Part shown: one piece after another, positions 9,011 to 62,167 of the stretch
Position numbering within the stretch: position 1 is the stretch's first letter
How the letters are laid out: the number at the start of each line of letters is the position of its first letter
Assembly (NCBI RefSeq): GCF_009687865.1
Contig: NZ_BLAE01000034.1
Coordinates: 62,001-126,000 of the forward strand
Length of the DNA stretch: 64,000 bases
Direction: 5' to 3'
From: Acrocarpospora macrocephala
Lineage (GTDB): Bacteria; Actinomycetota; Actinomycetes; Streptosporangiales; Streptosporangiaceae
The notes under the pieces: model-generated
What the model was told of the DNA's origin: nothing
What the model saw: only the letters and a program-made list of their open reading frames with translations
Databases searched by the model: none
Program-made: the position numbers and the translations under genes

Positions 9011-10729
9011 ATGACCCATTTCATCGTATGCTGCGATGGCACCTGGAATACTCCGGAGATCGAGTCGGTCACCAATGTTTGCCGGCTTTATAACGCTCTC
9101 ACCGAGACGAGCGTGGACGGCGACCGCCAATTGGCTTACTACCAGCCCGGCGTGGGCACTCTGCGCAACAGGCTGCTGGGAGGAGCTTTCGGGCTTGGTC
9201 TGTCCGACAATGTGATGGACGCCTACCTCTGGCTGACCACGCGATACGCCCCGGGAGATCGCATCTCATTGTTCGGATTCAGCCGCGGTGCCTACACGGC
9301 CCGAAGCCTCGCCGGGATGATATCGGCGTGCGGGCTAATCGACACCACCAAGGTGGACGAGGAAAAGCTCTGGCCTCAGATCAAAGATCTGTACAACCGC
9401 GGTTACCGGCAAAAGAAGCGCGACCCCCTAGGTCGTGAATGGCGGCACGGACTCGCCTTTTGCTGGGACCCGGACGATTACGACCAGATTCCAATACAAT
9501 TCATCGGGGTGTGGGACACCGTCGGCGCGCTCGGTATTCCAGCCTACATGGGCTGGCTCAGCCTTCTGGACCCATTGCATCGGCACGACTTTCACGACAT
9601 GCGGCTCAACCCGTATATCAAGCACGGTCGCCACGCCGTGGCCATGGACGAGCGCCGCAGTCCCTATACACCCGCGCTGTGGTCGGAGCCGTACGGGACC
9701 GAACAGGTCGTCAAGCAGGTGTGGTTCCCCGGTAGCCACATGGACGTCGGTGGTGGTCATCTTCAGCGGGGATTGAGCGACTGCTCACTGCGGTGGATGA
9801 TCGACGAAGCGCGCGAGGCGGTCGGTATCGGTTTCTACAAGACGACCGTGGAAGACCAGATCACTCCCAATCCGCTCGACGTTCTGCACAACGACGACCA
9901 CGGCGTGGTCGGCGTCCTCGAACCCTTGGTCGACCCGCAACTCGGGCCGCTGCTCGAGATCTTCGAGCAGCCGCGGCCGCGTGCCGTGCCCAAAATCGAC
10001 CCGGACGCAACGATCCCGCTGATTCACCAGTCGGTATACGACCGATACCAGACTCCACCGATCACCAGCGGGCCCTACCGGGCTACCCAGGTGCTTGCTC
10101 CTGGTCAGAGCAGGACGATCGAGGTGTTCGCCCACGAGCCGTGGAATGAGACAGGGCTCTACCTCGAATTCGGCGACTATCACTTCATGGCCGAGGGCCA
10201 GTGGCGCGACGCTGACATCCTGTCTGGTCCCGCCGGTACCACGGGCCTGCGCCGCTTCAACCCCTTGGTCGAGAGGCTCCGGCTCGTGGGCACACTGCTG
10301 GGCCAGGGCGAGAAGCTGTTCCGGCTTGTAACGGGGAACAAGGTGGCGGACTTCATCGGCTCGCGCCGGGAGGAGGACATGCCGTGGATGTCGCTTGTCG
10401 GCGTCGTCGCCAACGATGCGATATCCGTCGACGGTGAGTTCAAGTCCCACGAGCGCATCGCCGTCGGCGCCGGCACATCCTGCCGGGTGACCAGGAGCGG
10501 GTATCTGTACGCCTTCGCCAACGACGCCTGGGGTTTCTACGGGAACAACCGAGGCAGCGTGCACCTCACCGTGACCAGAATGCCTTCCGAGGCCGGTCCC
10601 GCTCGCACCCGGCGAGAACGGAGTCAACAGCAAGCCGTACCCGCCGGTAAAGAGAGAACACCTTCGGGAAATCGCCAAGCGGAGTTGGCCGGTGCAGGCC
10701 GAGGACGTCGTGCCGGTAAGCAAGGGTAG
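9011..10729 (+). CDS. DUF2235 (Tle1-like) alpha/beta hydrolase
   Basis: 572 aa. The N-terminal DUF2235 domain starts HFIVCCDGTWNTP and has a nucleophile elbow GFSRGA with Ser91. FIGVWDTVGALG follows, and then WFPGSHMDVGGGH, the family's metal/His segment. DUF2235 proteins are alpha/beta hydrolases that include T6SS phospholipase effectors (Tle1), but here there is no T6SS. The last 200 residues are a beta-rich extension with no family I recognise; residues 535-572 are a basic disordered tail. RBS GGGGGG lies before ATG 9011. No signal peptide, so it is probably cytoplasmic. The gene is solitary. Confidence 0.85.
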   Translation: MTHFIVCCDGTWNTPEIESVTNVCRLYNALTETSVDGDRQLAYYQPGVGTLRNRLLGGAFGLGLSDNVMDAYLWLTTRYAPGDRISLFGFSRGAYTARSLAGMISACGLIDTTKVDEEKLWPQIKDLYNRGYRQKKRDPLGREWRHGLAFCWDPDDYDQIPIQFIGVWDTVGALGIPAYMGWLSLLDPLHRHDFHDMRLNPYIKHGRHAVAMDERRSPYTPALWSEPYGTEQVVKQVWFPGSHMDVGGGHLQRGLSDCSLRWMIDEAREAVGIGFYKTTVEDQITPNPLDVLHNDDHGVVGVLEPLVDPQLGPLLEIFEQPRPRAVPKIDPDATIPLIHQSVYDRYQTPPITSGPYRATQVLAPGQSRTIEVFAHEPWNETGLYLEFGDYHFMAEGQWRDADILSGPAGTTGLRRFNPLVERLRLVGTLLGQGEKLFRLVTGNKVADFIGSRREEDMPWMSLVGVVANDAISVDGEFKSHERIAVGAGTSCRVTRSGYLYAFANDAWGFYGNNRGSVHLTVTRMPSEAGPARTRRERSQQQAVPAGKERTPSGNRQAELAGAGRGRRAGKQG

Positions 10730-29714: not shown

Positions 29715-29933
29715 ACTCACGATTCTGTTACAGGCGACCGGACCGGCTGTCGCCGGGTTGTCGCGGCGCCCGAGACCTCCAGCTTCATCGGCCGGTCGGC
29801 GGACTCCCGATATTCACTGGTGCTCGATCCGCTCCGCCCGGACGGCGCTTACGTGAAGGGCTTGGTGCTGAATTTCGAGCACTTGGCCTCGGGAGAAATC
29901 GCCTCCGCCGTACCTCATTGACTTCCGCGAGTG

Positions 29934-29965
29934 GCAAGCCCGTGTCAAGCCGCCCTGGCGATGAT
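29934..29965 (+). promoter_or_regulatory. SARP-type promoter, copy 1
   Basis: GCAAGCC (29934-29940) and TCAAGCC (29945-29951) are direct heptamer repeats 11 bp apart. Exactly 8 bp later lies GATGAT (29960-29965) as -10 hexamer. The same arrangement occurs at 53375 and 58388. Transcription should begin near 29973, giving a 23-nt leader with GGAG before the secreted-protein gene at 29996. Confidence 0.7.
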
Positions 29966-29995: not shown

Positions 29996-30412
29996 ATGAA
30001 GACCACCCGAATGCTCGTCGCCGCGGCGACCACGGCTGCCCTGGGCCTCAGCGTCCTCACCGCCTCGCCTGCCGAGGCCGCCGTCACCCGCAGCTTCAGC
30101 GAGTCGGCCTCCGAGGGCAGCGCTAGCTGGGGCACGGTCACCTTCAACAGTTACTCGTGGAACGTGGATGCGTACATCTACCGCGACTCGAGCGCCTCGA
30201 TCAAGCTGGAGGTCTGCGGCTGGCAGTCCCTGAGCAACGGCAGCTGGGGCCTGCTGGGCTGCAAGTCGGCCACCAACAGCGGCTCGATCGGCTCGACCCG
30301 GCACGTCACCACCCTCGGCGGATCCGCGAGCTGGGCCAGGGTCAGCATGGTGAGCACGGATCTCTACGTCAACGGCGTGTTCGCCGACGGGGACTGGAAC
30401 TACGGGTTCTGA
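29996..30412 (+). CDS. Small secreted protein, SARP-controlled
   Basis: 138 aa. Signal peptide residues 1-29 (MKTTRMLVAAATTAALGLS ... SPAEA). The mature 109 residues are rich in Ser, Gly, Trp and Tyr, with two Cys (LEVCGW and LLGCKS) that can pair, and look beta-rich. No known family. RBS GGAG 5 nt before ATG. The promoter matches those of the giant lysozyme-like/SGNH gene and the ArsR-type gene 23-28 kb away, so it probably belongs to the same regulon. Its role may be a surface or antibacterial protein; this is speculative. Confidence 0.75.
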   Translation: MKTTRMLVAAATTAALGLSVLTASPAEAAVTRSFSESASEGSASWGTVTFNSYSWNVDAYIYRDSSASIKLEVCGWQSLSNGSWGLLGCKSATNSGSIGSTRHVTTLGGSASWARVSMVSTDLYVNGVFADGDWNYGF

Positions 30413-53239: not shown

Positions 53240-53368
53240 CTGCGCCTGCCGGAGGTGGACGCGCCGACCCTGATGGAATCGGGGGTACGCCACGTCCACG
53301 CTGACTGGCGCGGCCTGCCGGCCCCCGGCTCGCGCGACATCCTCACCGATCTCGGCATCCGCCAGTAG
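53240..53368 (+). pseudogene. Unidentified C-terminal fragment
   Basis: Frame reads LRLPEVDAPTLMESGVRHVH, then ADWRGLPAPGSRDILTDLGI and a stop. No start codon and no family I recognise. It fills the gap between the repair operon and the SARP-type promoter. Confidence 0.4.
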
Positions 53369-53374
53369 GCGATG

Positions 53375-53406
53375 GCAAGGCCGTGTCAAGGCGGCCTGCC
53401 GATGCT
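53375..53406 (+). promoter_or_regulatory. SARP-type promoter, copy 2 (leaderless)
   Basis: GCAAGGC (53375-53381) and TCAAGGC (53386-53392), 11 bp apart, then 8 bp, then GATGCT (53401-53406). The ATG at 53414 comes 7 nt after the hexamer, exactly where transcription should start, so the mRNA is predicted leaderless. Only 8 nt separate the hexamer's end from the start codon's first base. Confidence 0.75.
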
Positions 53407-53413
53407 CCCGGAT

Positions 53414-56400
53414 ATGAGACACCCCCGGCGGCTGCTCCTCATCGGCGCCACGATCGCCGCCAGTCTGGCCACCCTGCTCACCCCCGCGACCCCCGCGCTG
53501 GCCGAGCCACCGGCGCCCGCCCCGACCTCACCGCCGCAGCATCTCGAACTGTCGTCCGTCCAGCCGGAGTTACGCGACCGGGTGCTGGGCGCGAACTGGC
53601 AGAAGTCCAACGACCTCGCCGTCACCACGGCCGGTGACGCGACCGGGTTCCACGTGTTCACGGCGACGGCCGCCACGGGCTACCAGTGGCGGACCGTCGC
53701 CACCCTCACCGAGCCCGGCATGGACACCGACCAGTGGATCGGCAACGCCTGCCTCACCGGATCCGGCACCAAGATCGTGGCCGTCTACGCGCCGCGCTAC
53801 TTCACCAACCGCGACTGGCTGTTCAGCCGGGGCGCCTTCGCCGCGATCATCGACGCCAAGACCGGCGCCGTCACCAAGCTCAGAGACCAGGTGACGCTCG
53901 CCTACTTCAACCCGGGCTGCGGCGCCGGTGACACGGTCGCGCTCACGCAGGGCGTCAGCGAGCAGCACGGCACCACCCGCCTGCTCACCGTCGACACCGC
54001 CGCCAAGCGCGTGACCCGGGCCGTCGTGGCCACCGGCCAGCTCACCTCGGCCGTCCCCGTGGGGGACACGGTGGTGGCGGCCGACGGGGCGCGGCTCGTG
54101 GAGGTGCGGGCGGGCGGCGAGCTCACCCAGCTCGCGGCCACCGACTCGGTGCCGTTCGACCTGCGCGCGACCGCCGACGGCGGCGTGGCCTTCGCCACCC
54201 GCGACGGTGCGTCGGTCAAGGTCCGGCAGTACCTGCGCGGGGAGACCCGCGAATTGGCGTCCGGCCCGCTGGGCGAACTGACGGTGCAGGCCGGCACGAA
54301 CGGCCGCGTCTTCCTCGTCGGCCGGGCCGACCGGCAGGGCGCCCTGCCGCAGGGCGTGTCACTCCTGGACGCCCCGGCGGCGGCCGACATCTCCTCCGAG
54401 GGCGGCCTCGCCGTCACCGCGGCGGCCCGGCGCGGCCTGCGCGCGGGACCCGGCGCCCCGCCCGCCGGACCGCCGGACGCCACCGCCCAGGGCGACGACC
54501 GCTCCGGTGCCGGCACGGAGGTGCCGGACGCCGAGCCCGTCGACATCGCCGCGCAGGTCGTCACGACCAAGAGCGCCGTCGGCTTCCAGGTGCAGCCGGG
54601 CGCCGACCTCGCCCCGTCGGCGGCCTCCGGACGCGTGACCAACCCCAAACTGGCGCTGACCCTCAGACCGGCGGGCCCCGCCGTGACCACGGCCGTCTCC
54701 GGGACCGTCGACACCGGATACACGTGCGCCGTCCCGCGCAACGACCCCGCGACGCAGGTCTACCAGCCGCACTGGCGGCAGGTGGAGTGGGCCGTGGACC
54801 AGCTCGTCTTCAAGAACCGGCTGACCGTGACCCGGCCGACCGGCTGGAAGGGCTCCGGGCTGCCCGCGTGGAACCCGCAGACCGAGTTCCCCATCCCGGA
54901 CCTGCAGGGCGGCGGGCGCATCCCGGTGTCGATCATGTTCGGCATCCTGGCGCAGGAGTCGAACCTGTGGCAGGCCCAGCGCAGCGTGCTGGAGGGCGAG
55001 ACCGGGAACCCGCTGGTCGGCAACTACTACGGCGTCAACATCTACGACGACAACCCGGCCAACGACTGGGACGTCGACTTCGGCCGGGCCGACTGCGGCT
55101 ACGGCATCTCGCAGCAGACCGACAACATGCGCAAGGACGGGTCCCTCTGGAGCGCCGCCAAGCAGAAGCGGGTGGCGCTCGACTACGTCACCAACATCGC
55201 GGCGGGCATGTCGACCCTGGCCCAGAAGTGGAACGAGATCTGGACCGACACCAACGGGGTGGCGAAGGTCCACAACGGTGACCCGTCGAAGATCGAGAAC
55301 TGGTATCTCGCCGTCTGGGCGTACAACTCCGGCTGGCACTCCAAGGCCGACGCCTGGAAGATCGACGGCAACGGCACGCCGAACCTCGGCGCGTGGGGTG
55401 TGGGCTGGCTGAACAACCCCGCCAACCCGTCCTACCGGCAGGACCGCCGCCCGTTCCTGGACAACAACAGCTACGCCGACGCGGCGCACCCGCAGGACTG
55501 GCCCTACCAGGAGAAGGTCCTGGGCTGGGCGGCGTGGCCGATCACCAAGACCTACTTCGACGCCGCCCAGAACAAGAACGTCACCGAGGGCGGCTACAAC
55601 TACGCGTGGTGGACCAGCGACGGCGCCCGCACGATGATCGTGCCGACGATCTCCAACACGGGGATCGTCGACAACAACACCTTCTGCGCGCCCGGCAACG
55701 AGTGCCAGCCGCCGTCGACAGGCAACGGGCGCGGCACCTGCCTGCGGTCCGACTCCAAATGCTGGTGGCACCTGCCCAAGGAGTGGAAGGACTGCCCGTC
55801 GGCCTGCGGCAACGAGGCGTCGCTGCGGTACGACTCGACCTGGGGCGGCACGGAACGCGCCGAACCGCAGGACCACTGGTACTCCTGCCACACGCCCGGG
55901 CTGCCGTACATCAGCGGGGACACGAAGAACGTCCTGATCGTCGACGACGGGAAGCAGTACGCGATCCGCGGCGGCTGCAACAACGCCGGGTGGGACAACC
56001 ACGGCACGCTGAGCTTCGAGTTCGCCCAGGACTCGGCGGGGCGGGTGCCCGCCAGGGCCGACTTCCAGCAGCTCGGCAGCGGATTCGGCGGGCACGAGTG
56101 GTTCGCGTACACGCGGATGGGCCTGCGCAACGGCGACGTGATGAAGGTGACCGGCACCTGGGAGCTCGACCAGCACATCAACGGGTGGGCCCGGGTCCTC
56201 GTCCACATCCCGAAACGACGGGCGGAGACCCAGCAGGCCCCCTACACCATCCACATCGGCGACGGCTCCGCGGAGTACCGCACCCTGAACCAGAGCCGGG
56301 AGGCGAACGAGTGGTACAACCTGGGCGTCTTCGAGTTCAAGGGGGCCCAGAAACCGAAGGTGTCGCTCACCAACCTGAACAACGAGGGCGACGGCTCGGC

Positions 56401-57469
56401 GGCCATCTCCTGGGACGCGATCGCCTTCCAGGTGCTCGCGAAACGGCCCAAGCACTTCGTGGTCGCCATGGGCGACTCCATCACCTCCGGTGAGGGCGTC
56501 GGGAACTACTACCCGGAGACCGACTTCGAGTACAAGACGCCACGCTGGAACGCCTGCCGCCGCAGCAAGGACGCCTGGATCCGCCAGACGGTCCTGCCGG
56601 GCGAGACCCAGACCATCGGCCAGCTGGCCGACTCCTGGGATCCGAAGCTCGACTTCTCGTTCGTGGCCTGCTCCGGCGCCACCACTCGGGACCTGACCGT
56701 GGGGCAGTACGCGTACATGCAGAACCCGATCGGCTCCTGGTCGGACTACCGGGACAGCGCGGAGGGCCGGTTCCGGGAGGCGGCGCAGCTGAACGGCGGC
56801 TTCCTGACGAAGAACACGACCCTGGTCGCCCTCACGCTGGGCGCCAACGACGCGGGCTGGTCCGGCGTCATCCTCGACTGCATCCTCGGCGTCCGATGTC
56901 GCCAGGGCAGCTTCGAGAACGACCTGCGGACCAACATCCTCGAAACGCTCAACACTCGGGTGACGCTGGGAGACCAGGCGAACGTCGCGAACATCCTCAA
57001 GGAGATCGAGTTCGATGCGGACAACAAGAACCCGTCCCGGGGCAAGAAGGCGAAGATCGTTCTCATGGGATATCCGGACATCGCCGGCACGTCCCCGCCG
57101 CTGACGATGTGCGGGCAGTTCGGCGTCGAGGCGGTGGGCGTGCTCGGCCGGTCCAGCGCGTTCTTCGCCACCGAGGCGCGCAAGACGGTGCAGGGGCTGA
57201 AGAACAACGGGTTCGAGGTGTCCTTCGCCGACCCCATGTCCGCCTTCCAGGGCCACGGCGTGTGCGGCACCGACCGATGGGTGAACGCCCTGATGTTCAA
57301 CAAGACCGGCCCCGGCGACTTCACCGATGTCTGGACCGGCTGTCTCGGCGACGGAGTCCGCTGCGCGAGCCGCAGCTCGTTCCACCCCACCAAGAGAGGG
57401 GCGCAGGAGTTCGCCACCGTGTTCGGCGACCACCTCCGCAGCTCTGAGGTGAACTACACCGGCTGGTAG
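53414..57469 (+). CDS. Giant secreted lysozyme-like / golvesin-like / SGNH hydrolase
   Basis: 1351 aa. Signal peptide 1-31 (ALAEP). A beta-propeller-like region covers about 40-310, then a Pro/Ala linker. A lytic-transglycosylase/lysozyme-like domain has GILAQESNLWQAQ near 510-520 with the candidate catalytic Glu. Beta-rich sections contain several Cys pairs, and a golvesin-like carbohydrate-binding region ends near 1005. A C-terminal SGNH esterase has GDSITSGEG (about 1020), LGANDAGW (about 1143) and FHPTKRG (about 1322), the Ser, Asn and Asp-His blocks. It would cut and deacylate a cell-wall or polysaccharide substrate outside the cell. ATG 53414 is supported by the promoter geometry. The stop overlaps the convergent SARP gene by 16 bp. 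Confidence 0.8.
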   Translation: MRHPRRLLLIGATIAASLATLLTPATPALAEPPAPAPTSPPQHLELSSVQPELRDRVLGANWQKSNDLAVTTAGDATGFHVFTATAATGYQWRTVATLTEPGMDTDQWIGNACLTGSGTKIVAVYAPRYFTNRDWLFSRGAFAAIIDAKTGAVTKLRDQVTLAYFNPGCGAGDTVALTQGVSEQHGTTRLLTVDTAAKRVTRAVVATGQLTSAVPVGDTVVAADGARLVEVRAGGELTQLAATDSVPFDLRATADGGVAFATRDGASVKVRQYLRGETRELASGPLGELTVQAGTNGRVFLVGRADRQGALPQGVSLLDAPAAADISSEGGLAVTAAARRGLRAGPGAPPAGPPDATAQGDDRSGAGTEVPDAEPVDIAAQVVTTKSAVGFQVQPGADLAPSAASGRVTNPKLALTLRPAGPAVTTAVSGTVDTGYTCAVPRNDPATQVYQPHWRQVEWAVDQLVFKNRLTVTRPTGWKGSGLPAWNPQTEFPIPDLQGGGRIPVSIMFGILAQESNLWQAQRSVLEGETGNPLVGNYYGVNIYDDNPANDWDVDFGRADCGYGISQQTDNMRKDGSLWSAAKQKRVALDYVTNIAAGMSTLAQKWNEIWTDTNGVAKVHNGDPSKIENWYLAVWAYNSGWHSKADAWKIDGNGTPNLGAWGVGWLNNPANPSYRQDRRPFLDNNSYADAAHPQDWPYQEKVLGWAAWPITKTYFDAAQNKNVTEGGYNYAWWTSDGARTMIVPTISNTGIVDNNTFCAPGNECQPPSTGNGRGTCLRSDSKCWWHLPKEWKDCPSACGNEASLRYDSTWGGTERAEPQDHWYSCHTPGLPYISGDTKNVLIVDDGKQYAIRGGCNNAGWDNHGTLSFEFAQDSAGRVPARADFQQLGSGFGGHEWFAYTRMGLRNGDVMKVTGTWELDQHINGWARVLVHIPKRRAETQQAPYTIHIGDGSAEYRTLNQSREANEWYNLGVFEFKGAQKPKVSLTNLNNEGDGSAAISWDAIAFQVLAKRPKHFVVAMGDSITSGEGVGNYYPETDFEYKTPRWNACRRSKDAWIRQTVLPGETQTIGQLADSWDPKLDFSFVACSGATTRDLTVGQYAYMQNPIGSWSDYRDSAEGRFREAAQLNGGFLTKNTTLVALTLGANDAGWSGVILDCILGVRCRQGSFENDLRTNILETLNTRVTLGDQANVANILKEIEFDADNKNPSRGKKAKIVLMGYPDIAGTSPPLTMCGQFGVEAVGVLGRSSAFFATEARKTVQGLKNNGFEVSFADPMSAFQGHGVCGTDRWVNALMFNKTGPGDFTDVWTGCLGDGVRCASRSSFHPTKRGAQEFATVFGDHLRSSEVNYTGW

Positions 57470-58308
57470 CCGGGAGCGCGGGGCGTCCCGGACGGGGCGC
57501 CCCGCCATGACCACCGCCGCGCGGACGCCTTCGACGGCTCGAAGTGGAGCGAGGGGTCCGCGCGAGCCATCCGGTCGTGCAACTCGTGGAGCTCCCTGGT
57601 CGGCTCCAGGCCGAGTTCCCGCACGAAGTCGCCGCGGGCTCGGCGATACCCCGCCAGCGCGTCCGGCCGGCGGCCGTCGCGATAGAGAGCGATCATGTAC
57701 GCCCGGATCAGCCGCTCCCTGAGCGGATGCTGCCGCACCAGATCGGCGAGCTCCGGCAGCAGCTCCCGGTGCCGCCCGCATTCCAGTTCGGCCTCCGCGC
57801 GCGCCTCGATCGCGGCCAGCCGCAGCTCCTCCAGCCCGACCCCCAGCCGGTCGCGCAGCCGATCGGTCGCGGCGTCGGCCAGCAGCGGCCCTCGCCAGCA
57901 GGCCAGCGCGTCGGTGAGCAGCCGCGACCGGCCACCCGGCCCAGCCGACCGGCGGGCCCGCCCGACCAGGTCCCGGAACCGGTGGACGTCGACCGCGCCG
58001 ACGTCGGTCTCGGCCAGATAGCCGTCACCCTGGCGCAGCAGCCGGAACCCCCGGGACCCCGTCCGGTCGGGGTCGAGCGTGCCGCGCAGCCGGGCGACGT
58101 GGCTGTGCAGGATGCCCCGGGCGTTGACCGGCGGGTCGTCGTCCCACAGCAGCTCCAGTAACCGGCCCACCGGGACGACCCGTCCCGCGTCGAGCAGCAG
58201 CAGGCCCAGCAGGCAGCGCTGGGCGCGCCTGGCGAGCGTGATCGTCGTGTCCCCTTGCCCCACCTCGACCGGCCCCAGCACCCGGAACTCCCAACCTCGA
58301 TTCGGCAT
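57454..58308 (-). CDS. SARP-family transcriptional activator
   Basis: 284 aa. N-terminal winged helix FRVLGPVEVGQGDTTITLAR ... LLLLDAGRVVPVGRLLELLW (about 8-95), then a BTAD domain: VDVHRFRDLVGRARRSAG ... RLIRAYMIALYRDGRRPDALAGY ... ELGLEPTRELHELH. No NB-ARC or TPR, so the small ActII-ORF4-like form. Start ATG 58308 without Shine-Dalgarno. It lies between the giant secreted protein and the ArsR-type gene, both of whose promoters have SARP geometry; a copy of that motif lies 80 bp upstream. No biosynthetic cluster is adjacent, so it appears to control secreted proteins. Confidence 0.93.
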   Translation of the reverse strand: MPNRGWEFRVLGPVEVGQGDTTITLARRAQRCLLGLLLLDAGRVVPVGRLLELLWDDDPPVNARGILHSHVARLRGTLDPDRTGSRGFRLLRQGDGYLAETDVGAVDVHRFRDLVGRARRSAGPGGRSRLLTDALACWRGPLLADAATDRLRDRLGVGLEELRLAAIEARAEAELECGRHRELLPELADLVRQHPLRERLIRAYMIALYRDGRRPDALAGYRRARGDFVRELGLEPTRELHELHDRMARADPSLHFEPSKASARRWSWRGAPSGTPRAPGYQPV

Positions 58309-58387
58309 GATTACGAGAGTCCGACACCTCGGTATAGCTGAGGTATAGACCCAGGTAGAACCCTTCCGCCGGTCTCGACCGGCAGCG

Positions 58388-58419
58388 GCAAGGCCGTGTC
58401 AAGACGGGCTGCCGAAGCT
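58388..58419 (+). promoter_or_regulatory. SARP-type promoter, copy 3 (leaderless)
   Basis: GCAAGGC (58388-58394) and TCAAGAC (58399-58405), 11 bp apart, then 8 bp, then GAAGCT (58414-58419). GTG 58427 follows after 7 nt, the same distance as at 53414. It may also serve the SARP gene on the other strand. Confidence 0.7.
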
Positions 58420-58426
58420 CTGAGTC

Positions 58427-59107
58427 GTGCTGCGAATTCACTTCACCGCCGAGGACATCGCACGAACCCGCCTGGCGACCGCGCCGCGCGCCGGCCACCA
58501 CGACGATCTGATCCGCGCGAGCGTCGAGGCCGACGTCGCGGCCCGCGTCGGCGCGCTGCTCGCCGGGGGCGTCGAGGCGCTGCTACGTGGCTTCGAACCG
58601 CTGATGCGCTGGCGCGCGCCGGTGCTGGAGGTGCGTTACCCGGTCGAGCGTGACCTGCACCTCCAGGGCCGGGGCCTGCGGCTGGTGCCGTCGTTCTGCT
58701 GCGGCGCGACGCCCCTGCCGCTCGTCGAGCAGGACCTGCCGCCAGTCCTGGTCTACCCGATTGCGCCCGAACACCGCCGGGACGCGATCACCGACCCGGG
58801 GGACTCACTCGCCGACCTCATGGGCGGCACCCGCGCCGCCGTCCTCGCCGCCCTGCGCGACAGCGCTTCCACGACGCAACTCGCCACCAGGCTGCACACC
58901 TCGCTCGCCGCGATGAGCAGGCACACCAAGACCCTCCGGCAGGCGGGCCTGATCACCACCACCCGTTGCGGTCCCGCTGTCCTGCACGACCTCACCCCAC
59001 TGGGCCGCAGGCTCCTCGACGGACCCCTTTGCGTTACCGCGCAAAGGTCTTCTCCGAGCCAGGGCGCTGATCGACTCTTACGGCTATGCGACTCACACGA
59101 TCAATGA
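58427..59107 (+). CDS. ArsR-type winged-helix regulator with internal deletion
   Basis: 226 aa. N-terminus LRIHFTAEDIARTRLA and the block EVRYPVERDLHLQGRGLRLV with PPVLVYPI are typical of actinomycete ArsR/DUF5937 regulators of about 320-330 aa. The winged helix is at 135-205 (TRAAVLAALRDSASTTQLAT ... AMSRHTKTLRQAGLI). Relative to the family some 90-100 residues between the N-terminus and the middle are missing, in frame. Leaderless GTG. Its 3' end overlaps the secreted-protein start by 22 bp. Confidence 0.75.
   Translation: MLRIHFTAEDIARTRLATAPRAGHHDDLIRASVEADVAARVGALLAGGVEALLRGFEPLMRWRAPVLEVRYPVERDLHLQGRGLRLVPSFCCGATPLPLVEQDLPPVLVYPIAPEHRRDAITDPGDSLADLMGGTRAAVLAALRDSASTTQLATRLHTSLAAMSRHTKTLRQAGLITTTRCGPAVLHDLTPLGRRLLDGPLCVTAQRSSPSQGADRLLRLCDSHDQ
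59026..59047. promoter_or_regulatory. Inverted repeat, candidate operator for the small secreted gene
   Basis: CCTTTGCG-TTACCG-CGCAAAGG, perfect 8-bp arms, lies inside the 3' end of the ArsR gene and ends 38 bp before the start of the secreted protein at 59086. Spacing fits an operator for the adjacent ArsR-type protein. Confidence 0.5.
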
Positions 59108-59535
59108 TCTCGACGGCGATCGCACTCCTCATCGGCATCGCCCTCCCGCTGACCTCCGCCCAGCCCGCGAGCGCGCGAGCGTGCTCGAGCATGGTCAACG
59201 GCAGCTACAAGGCCTACGGCACCCTCAGCGTGCACGTCCGCGGCACCAGCTGCAGCACGCGCAAGGGACACCTCACCCTGAGCAACGACGCGCACTGCTG
59301 CCCGCAGGTCTGGGTGAAGGTCGAGCGGCAGCTGTGGGGCAGCTACGGCTGGCTGACCACGCACAAGCAGTCCGCGTACACCCTCTGGAGAAGCTACGCC
59401 GAGATCGACACCGCGACCGTACCCTCGCGGCCCTCGGACGGTGACGAGCGGTTCCACGCCTGCTGGGCTTACGGCGACCCTTATGGTCCCGAACCCGGAG
59501 CCGCCTCATGGAACTGCGCCGGCTGGGTCGACTAG
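59086..59535 (+). CDS. Small cysteine-rich secreted protein
   Basis: 149 aa. Signal peptide about 1-28 (ending SAQPASA), leaving a mature part of about 120 residues with six Cys (CSSM, TSCST, HCC, HACW, WNCAG), likely three disulfides. No known family. ATG 59086 overlaps the ArsR gene end by 22 bp, without a clear ribosome-binding site. It resembles the 29996 protein only in being small, secreted and Trp/Tyr/Ser rich. Confidence 0.7.
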   Translation: MRLTRSMISTAIALLIGIALPLTSAQPASARACSSMVNGSYKAYGTLSVHVRGTSCSTRKGHLTLSNDAHCCPQVWVKVERQLWGSYGWLTTHKQSAYTLWRSYAEIDTATVPSRPSDGDERFHACWAYGDPYGPEPGAASWNCAGWVD

Positions 59536-59540
59536 CGGGA

Positions 59541-59780
59541 TCACGTGAAGGCTCGGTCGCTCGACGCGGCCGAGCCTTTTCGTCTGCCAAAAATCTGACA
59601 AACGGATCGAAGACATCGCGCAGAGGGAAGGCCGCTACCAATCCGACGCCGAGCACAGCGCAGGCGGGCCAGCAGGATCGGATCCCCAGCCGGCACACCG
59701 ACGAACGCTTCACGTCGTCGGAGATCCTCGAACCCCTCCACCGGCAACCCCGACCGCCCGCTGCCAGCTTGCTCAGACAC
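59541..59780 (-). pseudogene. Possible integrase N-terminal fragment
   Basis: GTG 59780 gives VSEQAGSGRSGLPVEGFEDL, RRREAFVGVPAGDPILL, then unrelated residues to a stop at 59541. The first part looks like the start of a site-specific integrase, though I cannot confirm the family. RBS AGGAG is present. The leader is repeated at 60670. Confidence 0.4.
59550..59581. terminator. Intrinsic terminator of the secreted-protein gene
   Basis: GGCTCGG (59550-59556) pairs with CCGAGCC (59570-59576), followed by TTTT. It lies 15 bp past the stop at 59535. Confidence 0.8.
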
Positions 59781-60746: not shown

Positions 60747-61513
60747 TTATGCCGCGTGACGGTATTCGCTGATCATGCCTGTGACGACTGCTTCTCGCTG
60801 GATGGATCGCAGGTCGGTGAGCTCGGCTGGGTCCTGAGTGTGCTGGGCTTCGGTATCAGGGGGTCGTTGTTGTCTGGCTTGGTGCGGCCGATGGCCGTTG
60901 TAGTGGATCAGGTACTCGCGGAGCACCCGAGTCAGGTGCCGCTCGCCAAGGATGAGGATCCGGTCCAGGAGCTCACGGCGGAGCGTTTCGATCACGCGTT
61001 CGCAGACGGCGTTCATCCTCGGCGTTCGCGGCATCGTCCTAATGATCCGCATACCTTCAGCCCTGAACACCTCCGCGAACGCGGCGGTGAAGAGCGGATC
61101 GCGATCATGGATGATCAGCCGCAGCGTGCCAATGCGATCACGCAGGTCCATGGTGAGATTGCGAGCCTGTTGCACAGCCCATGCACCGGTCGGGTGCGCG
61201 GTTGCGCCGGCCAGGTGTAGTTTCCGGTCCCGTGCTCGATGAACACCAGCACATACAGCCGCTTGAGCAGTACCGTCTCCACCACGAGGAAGTCACACGC
61301 GATGATCGCTTGAGCCTGAGCGGCCAGGAACTGCCGCCAAGTCGGCCCGGCCCGGCGAGGCGCTGGCTCGATACCCGCAGCATGCAGGATCTCCCACACC
61401 GCAGATGCTGCGATCACGTAACCCAAGCGGACCAGCTCGCCTTGGATTCTCCGACGCCCCCACGCCGGATTCTCCCGCGCCATCCGCACAATCAATGTCT
61501 TGATCGGCCGACG
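60747..61513 (-). pseudogene. Frameshifted, 5'-truncated rve-type transposase
   Basis: Reads KTLIVRMARENPAWGRRRIQ ... AACDFL-type ACDFLVVETVLLKRL to EHGT. A one-base loss near 61226 shifts the frame, and the rest continues KLHLAGATAHPTGAW, LIIHDRD, CERVIETLRRELLDR and GHRPHQA. The three DDE residues (CDF, HDRD, CERV) are all there but in two frames. The N-terminal HTH part is absent, replaced by integrase sequence. Confidence 0.85.
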
Positions 61514-61996
61514 CCATCCGGCGAACAGTCTGCCGATCTGCTCGGTGGTCGGCGGGATGCGCAGCTTGGCCTGCTGGCGGCCGCGGGGCCGGTTCATCTC
61601 GTCGATCGGGCACTCGATCACCCGGCCGGTCATCTGGTGGATCTCGACCTTGTGCCGAAGCTCCAGGAATAGGAAGAACGTCTTCAACGCCTGGGCCCGC
61701 GACAGCCGCGTCCCCTTCGCCGTGCTCCGCGGCACCTTGCCGAAGTAGACGTTGGCGTCACCGGGCTCCATCTCCCACAGCGGCCGGCCGAACCATGCCC
61801 GGACCTGCTCCAGATGCATCACGTCCGAAGAGATCGTCCCGTCCGACAGCCCCGCCGCCGCCCGCGCCAGCACGAAACCCGCCAGTACGTCGGTCTCCAA
61901 CGCCTCCAGGTCCTCCGCGGTGGCCGGGGCACGCGCCACTCGAAGATCCTTCACCACCGCCAGCGCCAACTCCGGGCACCTCGCCTTCACCCTCAC
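61514..61996 (-). pseudogene. N-terminal fragment of a tyrosine recombinase fused to the transposase
   Basis: 161 codons: SAM-like N-terminal domain with VMHLEQVRAWFGRPLWEM, SRAQALKTFFLFLELR and CPIDEMNRPRGRQQAKLRIP. It then runs in frame into the transposase. The catalytic domain with the R...HxxR...Y residues is missing, so it cannot recombine DNA. Confidence 0.8.
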
Positions 61997-62167
61997 AGCA
62001 AGACGAACGCCCAGGACGATAGGTCTTCAGAATCCCTGAAGTCTCATCAACTCCTGAACAAGCCGGAGTGCCAGCACATAAGCCCAGGTCCTGCGGTTAG
62101 AGCAGCCAAAGAGGCTCCGAGGAACTCAAGGGATATTTCTTACAAGTCGTCATGACCATCCGCGAGT

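Follow-up and report, generated by a model that had tools for sequence, protein, structure and literature searches.

The window analysed here, a stretch of 64,000 nucleotides from contig NZ_BLAE01000034.1 of Acrocarpospora macrocephala (contig positions 62,001 to 126,000), contains at 53.3–59.6 kb a group of genes that we regard as likely to form a self-contained cassette, in which a SARP (Streptomyces antibiotic regulatory protein) would control secreted proteins within a wider SARP network. SARPs have been studied and used mostly as switches of antibiotic clusters. The promoters described below support a SARP regulon aimed at secreted proteins, with the step from these boxes to this particular protein being presumptive, and this suggests a role in secretion or surface biology for some of the numerous SARPs that an actinomycete genome encodes. 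Because it would combine conserved predicted secreted-protein targets with an operator that can be found by sequence, such a regulon would provide a clean test of SARP specificity in DNA.

The evidence begins with two direct-repeat promoters, boxes B1 and B2, which precede a giant secreted gene and an ArsR-type gene on either side of the SARP gene. The sequence-only reading had described two heptamers at each of 53375–53406 and 58388–58419, spaced by 11 bp and followed after 8 bp by a −10-like hexamer: Both promoters are present with exactly this repeat period and this distance from the 3′ repeat to the hexamer, and they agree with the published rule for SARP promoters, which asks for direct repeats with a period of 11 or 22 bp and a distance of 8 bp between the 3′ repeat and the −10 element (PMC10936776). 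That list of boxes was incomplete, however, as it missed a third site at 29934 (box B3) and two on contig C16 of the same genome, all three of which have the same geometry. In the window, a scan with the two-heptamer pattern (≤2 mismatches) gave four matches, two of them exact, against 0.90 expected (standard deviation 0.90), and two of 100 shuffles reached four. Across the A. macrocephala genome (12.1 Mb), the pattern GCAAGNNCGTGTCAAGNC (≤1 mismatch) found five sites, all exact, compared with two for the reversed pattern that served as the control in genome searches: Three of them are the window sites at 53375, 58388 and 29934, two lie on C16 in a paralogous cassette, and all five stand 5′ of this set of genes. 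Judged by conservation and by published half-sites, the better register of box B would be YGGCAAG-N4-YGTCAAG. Since 7 nt separate the hexamer from the start codon in the giant and ArsR genes, their mRNAs are predicted to start at or near the start codon, and both transcripts are probably leaderless; over all 27 unique box B sites, a start codon follows the hexamer at a distance of 5–8 nt in 15.

Conservation of the heptamers in orthologous promoters had been named in the sequence-only reading as a check on its proposal, and the heptamers are indeed kept. A scan with an alignment of the giant protein (A2) found 453 relatives, of which 78 loci were retained, and box B stands 5′ of the giant gene in all 11 orthologous loci for which upstream DNA was available, with both heptamers exact in nine (L060–L067, L071) and one mismatch in two (L059, L072). 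These loci come from Acrocarpospora, Herbidospora, Microbispora and Planotetraspora. The box 5′ of the ArsR gene is likewise found at L060, L061, L067 and L068, and with one mismatch at L066. Among the 27 unique sites, spacer bases that the search pattern leaves free are kept as well (positions 9–11: G in 25, T in 25 and G in all 27), and the information content drops outside the promoter. In Microbispora (L064, L065, L071) and Planotetraspora (L062), the orthologue of the small secreted protein gene at 29996, which follows box B3, lies with a box of its own between the giant gene and the SARP gene; this placement carries weight because in the window the gene is 27 kb away from the SARP gene and had been picked by its box alone.

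The box also accompanies the SARP itself, as a search of related genomes for the motif near SARP orthologues, another check proposed at the outset, bears out. In 32 genomes, the box with its spacing and a GANNCT hexamer (≤1 mismatch) was matched 35 times in 14 genomes, compared with once for the reversed control, and a SARP orthologue (E ≤ 1e-60) was found in exactly these 14. The box is therefore present in 14 of 14 genomes with the orthologue and in none of the 18 without it, for which a one-sided Fisher test uncorrected for kinship gives 2e-9, a value that overstates the evidence because of the kinship among the genomes, which had also supplied part of the pattern. Twelve of the 18 SARP-less genomes encode a relative of the giant protein (G002, G003, G006, G017 and the genomes of the eight loci L069, L076, L077, L079, L080, L081, L084 and L088), so that presence of the giant gene is not enough to bring the box with it. 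In one Rhizohabitans genome (G053), a one-mismatch box is located 4.0 kb from the SARP gene, 5′ of a large SARP gene.

A survey of 297 genomes of the family (≤1 mismatch, counted by eye) yielded 47 box matches, spread over 26 genomes, whereas the reversed control had 19. Its 26 exact matches are confined to 13 genomes, whose contig coordinates are identical to those of 13 of the 14 SARP-bearing genomes in the 32-genome set, and eight further one-mismatch matches fall inside the same 13; the other 13 genomes have a single one-mismatch match each, which is about the level of the control (19), and include the Rhizohabitans genome G127 with the same coordinates as G053. Three further CAAGNC-N5-CAAGNC matches in 1.44 Mb of loci (L069, L101, L106) look like chance. 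Four Herbidospora genomes have in common a different sequence, GCAAGTC-AGTC-ACAAGNC-N8-GATCCT (L171 at 3789, with an ATG 6 nt later, and three others): These matches stay in the counts and are not taken as box B, and the element is perhaps a further SARP-type promoter.

The presumed activator carries two domains that both score beyond the cut-off and place it in the SARP family, and its best-scoring solved relative by sequence is AfsR (chain 8hvr_I, 1.1e-33). The 3′ end of its gene overlaps convergently with that of the giant gene; each frame that holds an orthologue at L062, L064, L065 and L071 has 948 codons, and the open reading frame (ORF) at L065 has 932 aa. Its promoter repeats the geometry of box B with another repeat, box A, which in the core register reads TATACC-N5-TATACC, 9 bp, GACTCT, 7 nt, ATG, and the layout with exactly 7 nt to the start codon recurs in 10 of 10 small-SARP promoters that carry the repeat. 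The bare TATACC repeat is matched 53 times in 16 of the 32 genomes, six times in A. macrocephala, and four times in the reversed control. The fetched loci contain 39 unique box A sites, which include orthologous ones. GATG[AC]T stands at offset +9 in 13 of them and at no other offset from 0 to 47 in any, although this hexamer was no part of the search pattern, and GANN[AC]T occupies offset +9 at 22 of the 39. The genes 3′ of box A include those for SARPs (L222, L228; L215 by eye) and signal-peptide proteins (L207, L223, L226 and others, by eye). Box A is found six, three and six times in the Acrocarpospora genomes G002, G003 and G004, all of which are without the SARP orthologue; the reader of box A is therefore not this SARP alone, and autoregulation by this SARP alone was ruled out. 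Because the same geometry is combined with a different repeat, a second SARP-type activator is probable. In G003 (A. phusangensis), an 11-bp repeat (GTTGTAT/GCTGTAT, TACAAT at 8 bp) at L056 5990–6009 is flanked by a divergent gene for a 309-aa SARP and by a giant gene of 43% identity; such repeats are common by chance.

Table 1. Promoter elements and genes of the putative SARP cassette and of the outlying box B3 site (positions in the window).
Feature	Position	Strand	Remarks
SARP gene	57454..58308	−	284 aa; OmpR-type DNA-binding domain (Trans_reg_C 9.3e-8) and BTAD (2.5e-37)
Box A, TATACCT-cagc-TATACCG	58330..58347	−	direct repeat 5′ of the SARP gene
−10-like hexamer GACTCT	58316..58321	−	8 bp past box A; 7 nt ahead of the SARP start codon
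Box B1, GCAAGGC-cgtg-TCAAGGC	53375..53392	+	SARP-type direct repeat 5′ of the giant secreted gene; kept in orthologues
−10-like hexamer GATGCT	53401..53406	+	8 bp past the 3′ heptamer (spacer ggcctgcc); 7 nt ahead of the start codon
Box B2, GCAAGGC-cgtg-TCAAGAC	58388..58405	+	5′ of the ArsR-type gene
−10-like hexamer GAAGCT	58414..58419	+	spacer gggctgcc from B2; 7 nt ahead of GTG 58427
Box B3, GCAAGCC-cgtg-TCAAGCC	29934..29951	+	followed by 8 bp and GATGAT (29960–29965); 5′ of a small secreted protein gene
Giant secreted protein	53414..57469	+	1351 aa from ATG 53414; signal peptide (by eye), SLT-like region, golvesin C-terminal domain, GDSL-like C-terminus
ArsR-type regulator	58427..59107	+	226 aa; starts at GTG 58427
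Small secreted protein	59086..59535	+	six cysteines invariant in 9 sequences
Small secreted protein under box B3	29996..30412	+	orthologue between giant gene and SARP in four genomes
Terminator-like hairpin and T-run	59550..59580	+	read by eye; near the right edge of the conserved cassette

In the mechanism that we propose, the SARP would bind the two repeats of box B next to each other, on the same face of the helix, and recruit RNA polymerase to promoters that have a poor −10 element (GATGCT-like) and lack a recognisable −35. Its targets, activated in this way, would be the giant NocE-like protein, the operon of the ArsR-type and small secreted proteins, the 29996 small secreted protein and, on C16, the paralogous cassette, with the giant-gene and ArsR transcripts beginning at or beside the start codon, while the SARP gene itself would be switched on through box A by a second SARP-type activator. 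Tentatively, and with slightly more doubt than confidence, we extend this to a layered SARP network for secreted proteins in some Streptosporangiaceae: Box A would serve SARP genes and small secreted proteins, box B with its CAAGNC repeats would be one second-tier output, the SARP-dependent promoters would have the GATGCT −10-like hexamer in common and several would be leaderless, and one tier would be a portable cassette with its own activator and targets.

Several observations weigh against reading the cassette as the regulon of this SARP. Box and SARP move together in one cassette within one family, which makes the 14 genomes non-independent, and the box pattern was partly learned from these same 14; in addition, conservation of the letters that the search pattern fixes is a given in the 27-site set, and the orthologue was sought in the 32 genomes and 41 relatives rather than in all 297. 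GATGCT differs from a textbook −10 element, so that its role as such is presumptive, and 12 of the 27 box B sites have no start codon 5–8 nt past the hexamer. Box A is absent from one Rhizohabitans SARP promoter (L188, the eleventh examined) and from four large-SARP loci. At L063, L072 and the C16 copy, a box-bearing giant gene occurs without a SARP in the fetched DNA; in these genomes the SARP sits elsewhere and therefore would act in trans. Finally, the A. macrocephala genome has at least 42 SARP-like matches (E ≤ 1e-20; 60 of 108 candidates scored), so that another SARP could read box B.

These many SARP-like proteins, together with the ArsR gene directly behind box B2, lend some appeal to the reading that box B is the operator of another regulator, be it the ArsR-type neighbour or a different SARP or OmpR-type factor, and that the nearby SARP is a bystander. 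We nevertheless consider it unlikely: At L062, L064, L065 and L071, no ArsR match (E ≤ 1e-6) accompanies box B and the SARP orthologue, the box follows the orthologue of this SARP in 14 of 14 against none of 18 genomes, and 11-bp direct repeats placed 8 bp from a hexamer are SARP geometry, whereas ArsR operators are palindromes. A dedicated sigma factor that reads the GATGCT promoter, with the repeats as part of it or accessory to it, would be compatible with SARP control and would account for the −10-like hexamer common to box A and box B promoters as well as for the pattern-independent restriction of GATG[AC]T to offset +9 of box A (13 of 39). Its probability appears low to us, as neither repeat lies 16–18 bp from the hexamer in the manner of a −35, and two different repeats with a common 11-bp period and 8-bp spacing fit SARP promoters; moreover, GATGCT-type sequences without repeats (YTGNCCGATGMTC) are not clearly enriched in the A. 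macrocephala genome, with 16 matches against nine for the reversed control. On the same count, GATGCT was rejected as a stand-alone promoter signal, being unspecific without the repeats.

It is very improbable, in our view, that the heptamers are mere passengers of duplicated or transferred cassettes with recent shared ancestry, even though A. pleiomorpha DNA matches the cassette at 97.7% identity between unrelated flanks and C16 holds a paralogous copy: The boxes outlast diverged non-coding DNA, since the homology between the 29996 gene and its A. pleiomorpha copy sets in at 29925, which is 9 bp ahead of the box, and C16 keeps its second box although most of the ArsR gene and the adjacent SARP domain are gone. 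Two non-protein readings of the boxes were also rejected. An Rfam scan of an 8-kb region returned no match at the gathering score (three weak matches, with E up to 5, lie far below it), which speaks against an RNA element, and a DNA hairpin around box B2 was dropped because its inverted repeat is not kept at the other box B sites (by eye).

Compared with characterised systems, the putative SARP operator finds its counterpart in those of PimR, SanG and PolR, which are direct repeats of CGGCAAG heptamers with 4-bp spacers (PMC3367932). The first heptamer of box B is CGGCAAG or its T variant, again with a 4-bp spacer, and on sequence grounds box B belongs to this operator class, with most letters in the 27 sites being fixed by the pattern. 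Its second heptamer, YGTCAAG, is one base off the class, and the targets are predicted secreted proteins here and antibiotic clusters there; furthermore, the main PimR operator stays clear of the −35, whereas box B ends 8 bp ahead of the −10-like hexamer. A related arrangement is that of AfsR at the afsS promoter of Streptomyces coelicolor, where a 22-bp box of two 11-bp repeats precedes a poor −10 element and the complex of AfsR, RNA polymerase and promoter has been solved (PMC10936776). The afs box is centred at −29.5, and the 22 bp of box B span −39 to −18 with the start codon as +1, which is close. AfsR itself is large, with NOD and TPR domains, and global, whereas the window SARP is small.

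NocR, too, is a SARP. The nocardicin A cluster of Nocardia uniformis combines a SARP with a large secreted SGNH/GDSL protein, nocE being described in PMC6856088, and the window may resemble it in this; NocE proteins are secreted, and their loss left β-lactam production unchanged (PMC6856088). That locus makes an antibiotic, whereas the claim of the sequence-only reading that no biosynthetic genes are present here is borne out by the scan of 28 among the 59 predicted window ORFs, which contain no biosynthetic enzyme and no polyketide-synthase or peptide-synthetase domains; in this set, the cluster-situated position that is typical of characterised SARPs without defining them is not seen. The cassette also bears on the question of why large NocE-like genes adjoin SARPs: A SARP is encoded in the fetched DNA at 15 of 66 more distant giant-gene loci, compared with about 3.9 expected from a density of at least 3.2 SARPs per Mb in 35 such genomes, which was obtained with a different model and is a lower bound because only part of the candidates was scored. 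EmbR of Mycobacterium is a SARP-family protein outside antibiotic clusters (PMC9239209) and matches the window SARP at 1.2e-30 (chain 2fez_A), but it differs in its FHA domain and in its regulon, which is debated. No SARP regulon of secreted proteins was found in the literature searched, whose coverage excludes most subscription journals.

Among the predicted targets, the giant protein likely starts at ATG 53414, which opens the signal peptide (by eye); the longest frame, from 53372, would enclose box B1. It contains a golvesin C-terminal domain (3.1e-12) and ends in a Lipase_GDSL match just under the cut-off (8.7e-5; 23.2 against 23.6 bits), and we call it NocE-like with reference to the description of NocE only. 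The wall activity proposed in the sequence-only reading is plausible but weakly supported: The SLT-like region is sub-threshold (E = 0.008) with a Glu-Ser pair that is invariant across 40 sequences, and its structural model (mean pLDDT 79.9) has the lytic transglycosylases MltC (E = 0.29) and MltF (1.1) as top Foldseek matches, neither of them significant. The A. pleiomorpha copy of the giant gene (L067, around 9263–9307) is split in two frames, owing to a frame break or an assembly error.

Behind box B2, the small secreted gene starts at 59086 within the end of the ArsR gene, so that both probably form one operon. Compared with its Herbidospora relatives (L167, L168, L169, L060, L061), the ArsR-type protein appears to be some 112 internal residues shorter, the gap following residue 18; the Microbispora copy at L066 aligns across the full 226 aa. 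The model of the 59086 protein has a mean pLDDT of 65.5, and a structural search gave no match at E ≤ 0.001; neither this protein nor that encoded at 29996, both of which would act outside the cell, has a Pfam match at E ≤ 1. An inverted repeat, CCTTTGCG...CGCAAAGG, occurs at 59026–59047, L006 14217–14238 (one mismatch) and L072 12071–12092, and precedes the small secreted gene also at loci that lack the ArsR gene; it may be an attenuator, a terminator or an operator. Beside the 29996 orthologue at L064 (12746, +) and L065 (12744, +) and facing the opposite way lies a second, divergent box-B-like site with one mismatch and GATGCT at 8 bp, which has no clear gene behind it; a similar sequence is found upstream in A. 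pleiomorpha (C11).

The borders of the cassette emerge from the comparison with A. pleiomorpha, in which the 97.7% homology spans 53328–59595, from just 5′ of box B1 to just past the terminator-like hairpin; beyond it, no match above 80 bp occurs in the fetched flanks. Set against a neighbouring stretch at 80%, this value looked decisive for horizontal transfer of the cassette, a conclusion that was abandoned: Other stretches common to both genomes are 96.5, 93.2, 92.0, 85.9, 79.9 and 72.0% identical, and with a range of 72–96.5% the comparison therefore suggests that the cassette moved as a unit without demonstrating it. A second divergence control gave scattered stretches (best 66–79% over longer matches) that are apparently paralogues and was left unused. 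In the paralogous cassette on C16, the giant gene (77% identity) and the small secreted protein (53%) have been retained, and the window SARP has no match there at E ≤ 1e-6; the remnant between these two genes resembles, by eye, the TPR end of a large SARP, and all that is left of the ArsR gene is its end. Outside 53.3–59.8 kb, the window ORFs have no relative in the compared loci among the matches listed. To the right of the cassette, transposase-like ORFs (integrase-core-like, by eye) are located at 60747–61996, and elsewhere in the window, the protein encoded at 9011–10729 has a Tle1-like phospholipase catalytic domain (Pfam, 7e-80).

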